Shown: piece after piece, positions 25,814-37,200 of the stretch
Layout: the number at the start of each line of letters is the position of its first letter
Position numbering within the stretch: the first letter of the stretch is position 1
Source of the DNA: Desulfosporosinus nitroreducens
Lineage (GTDB): Bacteria; Bacillota; Desulfitobacteriia; Desulfitobacteriales; Desulfitobacteriaceae
Assembly: GCF_023897015.1 (NCBI RefSeq)
Contig: NZ_JAMHFY010000012.1
Location: 62,001 to 126,000, forward strand
Reading direction: 5' to 3'
DNA: 64,000 nucleotides
Program-made: the position numbers and the translations under genes
The notes under the pieces: model-generated
Database searches by the model: none
The model's input: the letters and a program-made list of their open reading frames with translations, nothing else
What the model was told of the DNA's origin: nothing

Positions 25814-26467
25814 ATGAAAGTGATCGCTTTTAACGGGAGCCCAAGAAAAGGTTGGAATACAGAGATTTTATTAAGTAAGGCCCTTGAAGGTGCAGCGACT
25901 CAGGGAGCTGAGACTGAACTCATTCATCTTTATACCCTTAATTACAAAGGCTGCATCAGTTGTTTTTCCTGTAAGAGGAAAGACAGTAAAAGTTATGGTA
26001 AGTGCGCTATGAAGGACGATCTGATGCCAATACTAAAGAAAGTAGAAGAAGCTGATGCGATCATCTTGGGTTCCCCTATATATTTGGGAACGACTACAGG
26101 TGAGATGAGATCATTCCTGGAAAGGTTGATATTTCCGTACCTGGTGTATGATGAGAGTCATTCCACTCTTTTCAAAAGGAAGATTCCAACGGGTTTCATT
26201 TACACAATGGGTTTAAATATGGACGGATTGAAAGAACGGGGATATGATCAGCATTTTAAGCTTACAGACATGTTTCTGGAGAGGATTTTTGGAATGTCAG
26301 AATACTTGTCTGTGACCGATACTTATCAGTTTGATGATTATTCCAAATATGTTGCCACAGCGTTTGATCCCCAAGCAAAAGCAAAGAGAAGAGAAGAAGA
26401 GTTTCCAAATGATTGTAAGAAAGCCTTTGATATGGGCGTTAGATTAACACAACAAACTATAAAATAA
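25814..26467 (+). CDS. Flavodoxin-family NADPH-dependent FMN reductase
   Basis: A 217-residue flavoprotein with the N-terminal phosphate loop AFNGSPRKGWNT, a CISCFSC cysteine motif (residues about 49-55) and ADAIILGSPIYLGTTTGEM, typical of iron-sulfur flavoprotein-like NAD(P)H oxidoreductases of anaerobes. It may reduce quinones, nitro compounds or metals. It has a GGGAGG site and is followed by the minus-strand structured region. Confidence 0.85.
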   Translation: MKVIAFNGSPRKGWNTEILLSKALEGAATQGAETELIHLYTLNYKGCISCFSCKRKDSKSYGKCAMKDDLMPILKKVEEADAIILGSPIYLGTTTGEMRSFLERLIFPYLVYDESHSTLFKRKIPTGFIYTMGLNMDGLKERGYDQHFKLTDMFLERIFGMSEYLSVTDTYQFDDYSKYVATAFDPQAKAKRREEEFPNDCKKAFDMGVRLTQQTIK

Positions 26468-26615: not shown

Positions 26616-26625
26616 AAAGACATAC

Positions 26626-26649
26626 AAAAAAGCCACTGTGAAGTGGCTT
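26626..26649 (-). terminator. Terminator of the candidate ncRNA
   Basis: On the minus strand AAGCCACT-TCAC-AGTGGCTT is followed directly by TTTT. The hairpin has an 8-bp perfect stem and a four-base loop. No protein gene lies upstream on this strand, so the terminated transcript must be something else. Confidence 0.85.
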
Positions 26650-27090
26650 AACATTTATAGTATAAGAGCACGTAATGATCTACCTAACACCAATATAGAT
26701 CGCTGATTACCTAACTAGGATCTTCCGACCATAATCAAGCAAGTTACCACCCATAATAATGATTCGTTCGACCTTACAAGATATCTACCCAGCTATATAC
26801 AACCTCACGGCTGCATATAACCGAAATTCTTACACATGCATATATCATGCGACATATGGTTGCGTAAGAAACTCAACACCCGGCAAAATCTTAGCTCGAC
26901 CCTTTAGGATAAGTTAGAACCCTAAAACAATCTAAGAGACTGCCCTAAAGCTTCTCCCCACCACTAAAAGATCTTCCCTCCGACTATATACAAGCGTTTT
27001 ATCACCTGAAGATAATCTTTGGCCGACCCATATACACCCGGTAAAGAGCATATATAAATCTTGGCTCAACCATTACGTACCCTTATGAAC
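26626..27090 (-). ncRNA. Candidate large structured non-coding RNA
   Basis: No credible reading frame spans this area. On the minus strand it forms a series of helices ending in a terminator. Plus-strand coordinates of the arms: 26672-26682 with 26696-26710 (11 bp with one internal bulge), 26733-26737 with 26760-26764, 26794-26804 with 26809-26819 (GTGA-type loop), 26827-26836 with 26861-26870 enclosing 26838-26841/26847-26850, and 26889-26894 with 26932-26937 enclosing 26903-26908/26921-26926. More pairing is possible up to about 27262, so the RNA may be 450 to 640 bases long. Its class was not recognised; it is not tmRNA, RNase P, 6S or SRP RNA by any conserved block visible. Confidence 0.65.
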
Positions 27091-27403
27091 ATATTATGGC
27101 TTTTGGAGTCTTATTTTATTCTTGGCAATTTTAACCAATCTAACCGTGCTAACTGCAGTAAGGTGGATTCTAAATTGATATATATCACAGACTGCGGATT
27201 ACAGAATCTAATCAGGCACAGACGTCTAAGACCTAGCCAAAATGGTGTGTATTCGTGTATAGTAGTAATGGTAGGAGGGATGCCATTGATATAAGTATTG
27301 TGTTAAAATTGCACTTATTTATTGAAGGTTACAGAAACATAATTTTTAAAAAAAGTGGGTTCTTTAAAGACTATATGTATTAGTGAAGGGAAGGATAGTA
27401 AAG

Positions 27404-28231
27404 ATGAAAAGAAGATGGTTAACACTATTTGTGGCTATCTGTACAGTTGCTCTTTTAGTAGCAGGCTGCGGTCAGAAGTCTACAGACAAGAACCAAACAG
27501 GTGATCAATCCTGGAATAAAATTAAGGAAAAAGGGGAATTCGTCGTTGGTCTGGATGACAATTACCCGCCAGCAGGCTTCCGTGATAAAGCGGGAGAGTT
27601 GGTTGGCGTTGATATTGATTTAGCTAAAGAAGCAGCCAAGCGTTTAGGTGTTAAAGCTGTATTCAAACCAGTACAATGGGATGGAGTTCTCTTGAATCTA
27701 AAAAGTGGGGAAATAGATCTCATCTGGAACGCTCTAGGCATCACTCCTGAAAGACAGCTGGAAATCGGGTTTACGGAAAGTTATATGGAGGATCGGAATA
27801 TTATCGTTGTAAAGTCCGGTTCACCAATTAAGTCCAAGGCGAATTTAGATGGAAAAACTATTGGACTTCAATTAGGCAGCACTGCGGAAGAAGCTGTTGC
27901 TAAAGATCCGATTTCTTCTAAACTTAAGGAAATCAGAAAGTTTGAAAGTCCGACTGTTGCCTTAATGGATTTAGAGGCTGGTCGCATTGACGCTGTAGTA
28001 ACGAATGAAATGAACGCCCGTTACCTGATTACTACAGAAAAAACTGCAGACAAATATTATATTCTCACAGCAGAAGAAGGCGATTTTGACAAAGAGCCTT
28101 ATGGTGTAGGTGTACGCATGGAAGATAAAGCCTTCCTTGCTGAACTAAATCGAGTTCTCAACGAAATGAAGGCTGACGGGACTGCTGCCAAAATCAGTAA
28201 TCAATGGTTTGGATCAAATATCATTAAGTAA
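27404..28231 (+). CDS. Amino acid ABC transporter substrate-binding lipoprotein
   Basis: A 275-residue family 3 solute-binding protein with lipobox VAGC (Cys22). The mature part has FVVGLDDNYPPAGFRD, VDIDLAKEAAKRLGV and IWNALGITPERQ, typical of polar amino acid (glutamine, cystine or arginine) binders. The exact ligand is not clear. ATG 27404 is nine bases after AAGGGAAGG; an earlier ATG at 27383 lacks a site. It leads the operon with two permeases and an ATPase. Confidence 0.85.
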   Translation: MKRRWLTLFVAICTVALLVAGCGQKSTDKNQTGDQSWNKIKEKGEFVVGLDDNYPPAGFRDKAGELVGVDIDLAKEAAKRLGVKAVFKPVQWDGVLLNLKSGEIDLIWNALGITPERQLEIGFTESYMEDRNIIVVKSGSPIKSKANLDGKTIGLQLGSTAEEAVAKDPISSKLKEIRKFESPTVALMDLEAGRIDAVVTNEMNARYLITTEKTADKYYILTAEEGDFDKEPYGVGVRMEDKAFLAELNRVLNEMKADGTAAKISNQWFGSNIIK

Positions 28232-34264: not shown

Positions 34265-37200
34265 ATGGGATCACAAGCTGTAAAACGTATTTACGTGGAA
34301 AAAAGGCCTGGCTATGATATTGAAGCCCAGGGTCTGTACAATGATCTTCTGGAAAATTTAGGGATGCTAGGTTTGCAAGGGTTAAGAGTAATTAACCGTT
34401 ATGATATTTCTGGAATTACGGACGAGGAGTATGCAAAGTCCCGTCCGATTATCTTTGCTGAGCCTCCATTGGATTTGGTGTACGACGAAAATATTGAAAT
34501 TTCCCCACAGGACCAAGTTTTTGCTATGGAATATCTGCCCGGTCAGTATGACCAGCGAGCGGATTCTGCTGCTCAATGTGTACAGATTCTGACCCAAAAA
34601 GAGCGGCCAACGATTGCTTCAGCTAAGGTTATAGTATTAAAGGGTCAACTGTCCGCGATGGATTTTCACAAAATTAAAGATTACTGCATTAATCCAGTCG
34701 AATCTCGGGAAGCTGCTTTAGAGAAGCCCGAAAGCTTAGAATTTGAAGCTGTGACCCCTCCAAATGTCGTAATACTTGATCGCTTTATTGAGAAGTCGTC
34801 TGAAGAACTGAAAGCGTTCTTTAATGAAACGGGCTTAGCAATGAGCTATGAAGATTTAGCATTTTGTCAAGCATACTTCCGAGATACAGAAAAACGAAAT
34901 CCAACGATTACTGAGATTCGAGTTATCGACACTTACTGGTCGGATCATTGTCGGCATACGACCTTTAATACAAAGATCGAAGAGGTTGCTTTTCCAGAAG
35001 GAGATTTTGCTCACCCATTAACCAAAGCCTATCATGAGTATCTCATGTCAAGGTATTATGTTTATGGAAAAAATCCTACTGATCGAGATGTTTGTCTCAT
35101 GGACATCGCTGTTTTGGGTATGAAAGAGTTGAAGAAAAAAGGGCTCTTACCTGATCTTGACCTATCAGATGAGATCAATGCCTGCAGTATAGTGGTAAAT
35201 GTCGATGTCAACGGTCAAAATGAAGAGTGGCTGGTTATGTTTAAAAACGAGACCCATAACCATCCGACAGAAATCGAACCCTTCGGCGGGGCAGCTACCT
35301 GTCTGGGAGGGGCCATTCGAGATCCCCTGTCTGGCCGTACCTATGTGTATCAAGCCATGCGCGTGACAGGAAGCGGAGATCCAAGGGCAAAGCTTGAAGA
35401 TACTCTCCCCGGCAAACTGCCCCAGAGGAAGATCACCAGAGGTGCGGCTGCCGGTTATAGTTCCTATGGAAATCAAATCGGACTGGCGACAGGTCAAGTA
35501 ACGGAAGTCTATGATGAAGGTTTTGTGGCCAAACGGATGGAAATTGGGGCAGTCATTGCGGCCGCTCCCCGGGAAAATGTAGTACGTGAAGCCCCTGAAG
35601 CTGGGGATGTTGTCGTACTTGTCGGCGGAAGAACGGGCAGGGACGGATGTGGCGGTGCAACTGGATCTTCTAAAGAGCACACCACGGAGTCTCTACTGAC
35701 TTGTGGGGCGGAAGTACAAAAAGGTAATCCTCCCACAGAACGAAAAATTCAGAGACTTTTCCGTAATGCTAACGTCAGTAAGCTAATCAAACGGTGCAAC
35801 GATTTTGGAGCAGGCGGGGTATCGGTTGCTATCGGTGAATTAACGGATGGCTTAGAGATTAACTTAGATGCAGTTCCGAAAAAATATGAAGGTCTTGATG
35901 GGACAGAACTTGCGATTTCTGAATCCCAAGAACGAATGGCAGTCGTTATTCGCGTTCAAGATTTTGAGGCTTTTGCCAAGTATGCTCATGAGGAAAACCT
36001 AGAAGCAACCTTAGTTGCTAAGGTTAGTACTGACCCTAGACTTATAATGGTTTGGCGCGGGCAGGCGATTGTCGATCTCAGTCGAGAATTTCTCAATACA
36101 AATGGAGTTAAGCAAACGACGAAGGTTAAGGTCACTCTTCCGGAAGGGAATCACAACTATTTTAGCAAGTTGCCAGAAGCTGTCGAACAAAAGCTAGCTT
36201 CTCATAATGTTCCGAACTCAGGCGCAATCTTAAAAGAGGCCTGGCTTGCTAATTTGAGTGATTTAAACGTCTGCAGCCAAAAGGGGTTGGTGGAGAGGTT
36301 TGACAGTACTATCGGAATGTCGTCCGTCTTGATGCCTTTAGGTGGTAAGTATCAGGCTACTCCGGCTGAAGGTATGGTGGCTAAGATTCCCGTCTTAGCG
36401 GGGGAAACAAATACGGCTACCATAATGACCTATGGCTATAATCCGCAATTGGCAAAGTGGAGTCCTTTTCACGGTGCCTTATATGCCGTGGTAGATGCGG
36501 TAACTAAGACTGTGGCCCTGGGCGGGGATTATCACAAGGTTCGACTTACCCTGCAGGAGTATTTCGAACGATTAGGAACAGATCCCGAAAAATGGGGAAA
36601 ACCTTTCAGCGCTTTGTTAGGAGCTTTTTATGCTCAGAAAAAACTTGGAATTCCGGCGATCGGTGGAAAAGACAGCATGTCTGGAACCTTCATGGATTTG
36701 CACGTTCCTCCCACATTGGTTGCTTTTGCAGTCAATGTGGTCGAGGCTGATAAGGTTGTCTCCCAAGAGTTCAAAAAGCCTGGCAGTATGGTTGTTTTAG
36801 TGAAAGCCACTCGGGATGAGCATGAAGTCCCTGATTTTGAACAACTAAGCAAAAACTACTTGAAAATTAACGAGTTGATCCATTCCGGAAGCGTCTTGGC
36901 ATCTCATACTGTCAGGATGGGAGGACTGGCGGCGGCACTTAGCAAAATGTCCTTCGGTAATCGAGTTGGGATGACCTTAGACAGTTCAATAGATATTAAT
37001 AGTCTGTTTACTGCTGATTATGGTTCAATAATCTTAGAAATAGAAGAAACGGTTGATCTGGCAAAAGCCTTCAGCGGGGTAGACTTCCAATTGCTCGGTG
37101 TAACTCAGGAAAACCCGATCATTACGATTAATGACGTGAATATTGAGCTGGAAACCGCTTTGCAGGCCTGGGAAAAGCCACTGGAAAAAATCTTTCCAAC

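Follow-up and report, generated by a model that had tools for sequence, protein, structure and literature searches.

The minus strand of the 64,000-nt stretch of Desulfosporosinus nitroreducens DNA analysed here (the window) carries the gene of a structured RNA of about 420 nt, with defined limits, a promoter of the forespore type, a wide spread in the phylum, no fixed neighbours and a near-confinement to genomes that encode sigma-G. We consider it highly probable that this is a stand-alone RNA gene transcribed in the forespore by way of sigma-G or sigma-F, expression in the forespore being inferred from the promoters. The RNA represents a new family, with no relative among those of Rfam 15, in the already known genre of large structured RNAs from bacteria. 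Its control resembles that of a forespore sRNA, and its form that of the large ornate RNAs.

Work on endospore formation has centred on proteins, and few forespore RNAs are known. The presence of a ~420-nt RNA in about one third of the sampled genomes of a largely spore-forming phylum, with a near-restriction to those that encode sigma-G, suggests that sporulation has an old RNA component, overlooked in a lineage rich in environmental and industrial anaerobes. The analysis yields a covariance model that is ready for use, places the gene limits precisely and opens a route to a direct genetic test.

Limits and architecture of the RNA

The structured core, as defined by profile, is situated at 26662-27086 on the minus strand (425 nt, from P1 to P1'); it is matched over its full length by nhmmer and is conserved in genus, family and phylum. 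The intrinsic terminator described in the sequence-only reading, an 8-bp hairpin (AAGCCACT/AGTGGCTT) with a T-run, is present at 26626-26649 on the same strand, as read from the sequence. Terminator-like 3' ends were found by a simple scan in 85 of the 110 homologues, as compared with 28 of the 330 control places. Folding of the minus strand over 26620-27300 gives an energy of -222 kcal/mol and a z of -5.9 relative to dinucleotide shuffles, whereas the plus strand reaches a z of only -0.6, so that the proposal of a structured minus strand is borne out. The extent proposed at that stage, 26626-27262, is correct at the terminator end (~26626) and about 175 nt too long at the 5' end, because the stretch upstream of the promoter is alignable in the nearest relatives only and the promoter itself lies at 27092-27121. 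A base composition unlike that of the flanks, also proposed, is not observed: the core has a GC content of 0.405, and its two flanking genes have 0.390 and 0.415. Among the homologues, the GC content of whole copies ranges from 0.35 to 0.62.

The list of open reading frames contains only short chance ones within the RNA stretch, in agreement with the original statement that no plausible gene is present there. Stop codons occur in each of the six frames in 107 of the 110 copies, which rules out a protein gene at the RNA locus; a protein gene at homologous positions, which would have refuted the sequence-only reading, is not found. The RNA is transcribed against both of its flanking genes, as that reading had it, because both are located on the plus strand. 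By inspection, they encode a flavin reductase-like protein (25814-26467), which is not conserved as a neighbour, and the binding protein of an amino-acid ABC importer (27383-28231), which is a neighbour in a few close relatives only. The genes next to the RNA copies are likewise not conserved, belong to varied families and are found in both orientations, and the RNA is therefore regarded as a stand-alone gene. A cis-regulatory leader is excluded, since the downstream genes differ in family and orientation. With its own promoter and terminator and without a fixed downstream gene, the RNA has the organisation of a trans-acting gene; both its production in the forespore and its action in trans are inferred.

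The consensus structure reveals a six-way junction, in which P1 pairs both ends of the RNA and encloses P2-P6. All of the helices are on the minus strand. The closing helix P1 is formed by its 5' strand at 27068-27085 and its 3' strand at 26663-26680, and 11 of its 18 pairs covary significantly. It is followed by the hairpins P2 (27021-27067; 20 pairs, 8 significant) and P3 (26982-27017; 15 pairs, 11 significant), and by the long hairpin P4 with a symmetric internal loop (26893-26978; 33 pairs, 20 significant). The P5 domain (26770-26890) is composed of the P5 stem, a variable P5a hairpin and P5b (26789-26824), which carries a GNRA-type loop; it accounts for 16 + 16 pairs, of which 7 + 11 are significant. 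P6 (26684-26766; 32 pairs, 18 significant) is another long hairpin, with an internal loop and a GNRA-type loop.

An RNAalifold consensus of 44 relatives contains 132 pairs, 58 of which have changed on both sides. With 62 sequences, the covariation test was underpowered and yielded one significant pair, and the matter was settled with 110 diverse sequences. In this set, 37 column pairs are significant at E<0.05 under a tree-based null, in which the substitutions of each column are replayed on the tree (a Python implementation, not R-scape itself). The consensus structure contains 36 of them, and the remaining one is adjacent to a pair of that structure. When only the pairs of the structure are tested, 86 of 151 are significant, with every main helix represented. 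The helices, for which covariation in relatives had been named as a check, are thus supported by extensive compensatory change. Covariation beyond phylogeny and the absence of coding at homologous positions together identify the locus as a conserved structured RNA gene.

Sequence drifts in the helices, whereas the strands of the junction hardly change and are the most conserved parts of the RNA. These strands share a repeated motif, GUCG-R-N2-5-AAG-A-Y, which occurs 3.2 times per RNA as compared with 0.07 in shuffles. Whole modules can be absent: the P5a hairpin is missing in some genera (L055, L056, L060), one copy lacks the entire P5 (L307) and another has lost P3-P5 (L095, in G022:C8), and the latter two keep P1 and the ends. 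We also note that alignment columns 67 and 112, in the linkers around P3, covary and are always canonical, at an E of 0.13 and outside the consensus structure; this pair may be a tertiary contact or pseudoknot.

Promoter and distribution

The window carries GAATA-N18-CATAATA, an exact match to the sigma-G consensus, upstream of P1 on the minus strand. Its -35 element GAATA (GHATR) is located at 27117-27121 and its -10 element CATAATA (CATNHTA) at 27092-27098, and the positions of both are conserved across homologues. The consensus sequences used are those of B. subtilis, namely GHATR-N17/18-CATNHTA for sigma-G and G-N-W-T-N, N14-16, GGnnAnAnTR for sigma-F. An exact sigma-F/G promoter is situated directly 5' of P1 in 52 of 109 copies, where about 0.12 would be expected from flank windows. 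With one mismatch or none, it is found in 95 of the 109 upstream regions as against 2.7% of background windows, and its distance from P1 is fixed. The motif was first noticed in the genus, and the 53 loci fetched later form an independent test, in which 23 promoters are exact versus 0.05 expected. Judged by the presence of a promoter at the start of the RNA, in the full set as well as in the independent one, the RNA is a predicted member of the forespore sigma-F/G regulon. The recognition by sigma-F and that by sigma-G are reported to overlap in a Clostridium relative (PMC7438776). Matches to the sigma-E, K and H consensus are rare or absent upstream of the RNA copies.

The SASP genes are textbook targets of sigma-G, and gpr is another gene expected to be one. 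The SASP genes of the genus served as a control, and most of them show GAGTA-N17-CATAATA with fixed spacing (20 of 28 at one mismatch); their -10 element is identical to that of the window RNA, and their -35 box is one base off the consensus used. A sigma-G promoter is not clearly seen at the gpr genes of the genus. The positive control is therefore clear genus-wide for SASP and not for gpr, and within the window's own genome it is poor. An RNA copy is found immediately downstream of a SASP gene (L102, G015:C240:35204-35368 and 35486-35925).

Neither the forespore promoter nor the phylum-wide spread had been recognised in the sequence-only reading. Of 30 genomes of the genus, 29 have matches, mostly as 1-3 copies and at most 5 matches, some of them partial, and the stretch is matched in 37 of 46 genomes of the family. 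A second copy in the window's own genome (L038, G000:C33:243446-243885) has 81% identity and a less perfect promoter. While blastn matches only 20 of 398 genomes of the phylum, a covariance model built on the 5' 116 positions, the 5' third of the RNA, detects it in 146 of them at E<=0.01 (102 of 266 genera) and in 132 at E<=2e-10. Marginal matches of the model (E ~0.001) in two Bacilli genomes were dropped as they fell inside protein genes, and for this reason the phylum survey counts only E<=2e-10. Most carrying genomes across the phylum have one to few copies.

A pattern scan with one genome per species returned 65 matches, all of which are homologues by profile search and most of which are full length. 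The carriers are Desulfosporosinus, Desulforamulus, Caloramator, several Clostridium, Natronincola, Anaerovirgula, Caldicoprobacter and Candidatus Dichloromethanomonas, together with Tepidibacillus and a Bacillaceae MAG from the Bacilli. In a class-level sample around the Bacilli match, 8 of 200 genomes match and two of these are false, which leaves 6 of 200. Of the 341 genomes with sigma-G, as called by the E-value of the spore_sigG model, 131 carry the RNA, as against 1 of 57 without sigma-G (Fisher p 5e-10, uncorrected for the relatedness of the genomes); the lone carrier without sigma-G is a genome that is 61% complete. Since only ~38% of the sigma-G genomes carry a detectable copy, the RNA is not needed for sporulation everywhere.

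Relation to known RNAs and possible functions

A search of the whole window against Rfam 15 gave 0 hits at the gathering threshold, and no relevant match to the RNA region at E<=10. For 16 diverse homologous loci, the Rfam matches stay at the chance level (E 0.15-0.65, far below gathering). Weak matches to a miRNA, a Brucella sRNA and dfrA-dnaX were rejected as due to chance. The RNA is accordingly not a member of Rfam 15, which includes OLE, GOLLD, ROOL, raiA, 6S, RNase P and the group I/II introns. No description of it was found in the open-access literature, papers outside open access not being covered. The idea of a stand-alone large structured RNA, possibly new, is thereby supported, while the likening to OLE, GOLLD and ROOL is apt for size and ornateness only, as by Rfam the RNA is none of them.

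OLE RNA is about 600 nt in length. The window RNA resembles OLE (RF01071) as a large, ornate and stand-alone RNA of Gram-positive bacteria, and differs from it in its length of ~420 nt and in the lack of a conserved neighbour gene; the OLE covariance model gives no match even at E 10. GOLLD and ROOL are likewise large ornate RNAs, of bacteria and phages, in contrast to which the window RNA has no match in the collections of viruses, phages and plasmids that were searched, nor in Rfam. CsfG has a length of about 150 nt and is thus much shorter. The two share control by sigma-F/G in the forespore, which is inferred for the window RNA, and no Rfam match of any name was obtained in the region or its homologues, where the existence of a CsfG model in Rfam is unverified. 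CsfG is a Bacillus sRNA restricted to the forespore under sigma-F and sigma-G (PMC9147052). The clostridial raiA motif RNA is structured, and its loss is reported to affect sporulation, according to a title cited in PMC12286853. The raiA RNA differs from the window RNA in its size of ~205 nt (PMC12286853) and in its architecture, and the window RNA has no match to it in Rfam.

We propose that RNA polymerase with sigma-G or sigma-F would transcribe the RNA in the forespore of endospore-forming Bacillota, that the intrinsic terminator would end the transcript, and that P1 would join the RNA ends into the predicted six-way junction around P2-P6. A forespore protein may bind, in several copies, to the repeated junction modules, and the resulting ribonucleoprotein could help to build or protect the dormant spore. 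This scaffold mechanism for spore assembly or dormancy, the likeliest of those considered, is speculative and is put forward tentatively; the scaffold step rests on the repeated motif alone, because no protein partner has been identified. The broader reading, in which an ancient RNA family of spore-forming Bacillota is at the core of a particle in the developing spore, built of RNA and protein or of RNA only, and is an undescribed component of sporulation, is a serious possibility that falls short of being probable.

The closest parallel in control is Bvs196, a 294-nt forespore-specific sRNA of Bacillus velezensis from the hinT-ecsA intergenic region, which is controlled by sigma-F/G and affects spore resistance (PMC9147052). 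Both are stand-alone structured RNAs that have their own terminator and start a few nt downstream of a sigma-F/G promoter (PMC9147052). This same promoter class and organisation lend some weight to a forespore regulatory RNA that acts mainly by base-pairing with mRNAs through short single-stranded seeds in the junctions, as proposed for Bvs196 (PMC9147052), and the junction strands are indeed the most conserved parts of the window RNA. We nevertheless find such a function unlikely: nearly the entire RNA is engaged in covarying helices, which we infer to be beyond the usual need of an antisense sRNA, and the most conserved stretches resemble a folded junction core and not one exposed seed. The window RNA is also longer than Bvs196, is found mainly outside the Bacilli sampled and does not have hinT and ecsA as neighbours. 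An HMM of the window RNA found nothing at 30 HIT-family gene loci of Bacilli, and Bvs196 was rejected as a homologue for lack of similarity at hinT/HIT-family loci, the comparison being made through these loci and not with the Bvs196 sequence itself. One hinT intergenic region (L314, minus strand from ~2223, upstream of hinT) has an exact sigma-G promoter followed by ~330 nt of structured DNA, which is unrelated in sequence to the window RNA and lacks its junction motif; from gene order, it is probably the homologue of Bvs196.

Large ornate bacterial RNAs can assemble without protein (PMC12286853), and this precedent allows for an RNA-only machine in the forespore, either a ribozyme or a homo-oligomer similar to the OLE dimer or the GOLLD/ROOL cages. 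The quasi-repeated modules, the two GNRA-type loops and the near-invariant junctions fit the compact tertiary fold that it would require. On the other hand, no sequence relation exists to the ribozymes or large RNAs of Rfam, and the loss of whole modules is unusual for a catalytic core, though the copies concerned may be decaying, which makes such a machine improbable in our view.

An RNA with a housekeeping or stress role, transcribed through sigma-A during growth and carrying a forespore-like promoter incidentally, could draw on the weak sigma-A-like matches, which at three or fewer mismatches occur in 18 of the 109 upstream regions versus 6.5 expected, a two- to threefold excess. This excess is small beside that of the exact sigma-F/G matches and their fixed distance from P1, and the near-absence of the RNA from genomes without sigma-G speaks further against this origin, for which we see very little chance. 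The 1-5 copies per genome within the genus, some of them partial, might bring to mind a mobile or selfish element, an RNA from a phage or the relic of an intron. This is hardly credible for an RNA that has its own promoter and terminator, occurs as one to a few copies in most of the genomes that carry it in the phylum, has no recurrent transposase or reverse transcriptase among its clustered neighbour genes and is unmatched in viral contigs and in the phage and plasmid collections searched; on this last ground, a viral, phage or plasmid origin was rejected.

Upstream of the RNA gene, the plus-strand segment 27225-27300 lies 5' of the importer gene at 27383-28231 and has matches of 81-85% in six relatives (G007, G012, G004, G029, G021 and G023), all of them away from RNA copies. 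The ABC importer therefore seems to own a conserved leader or promoter.
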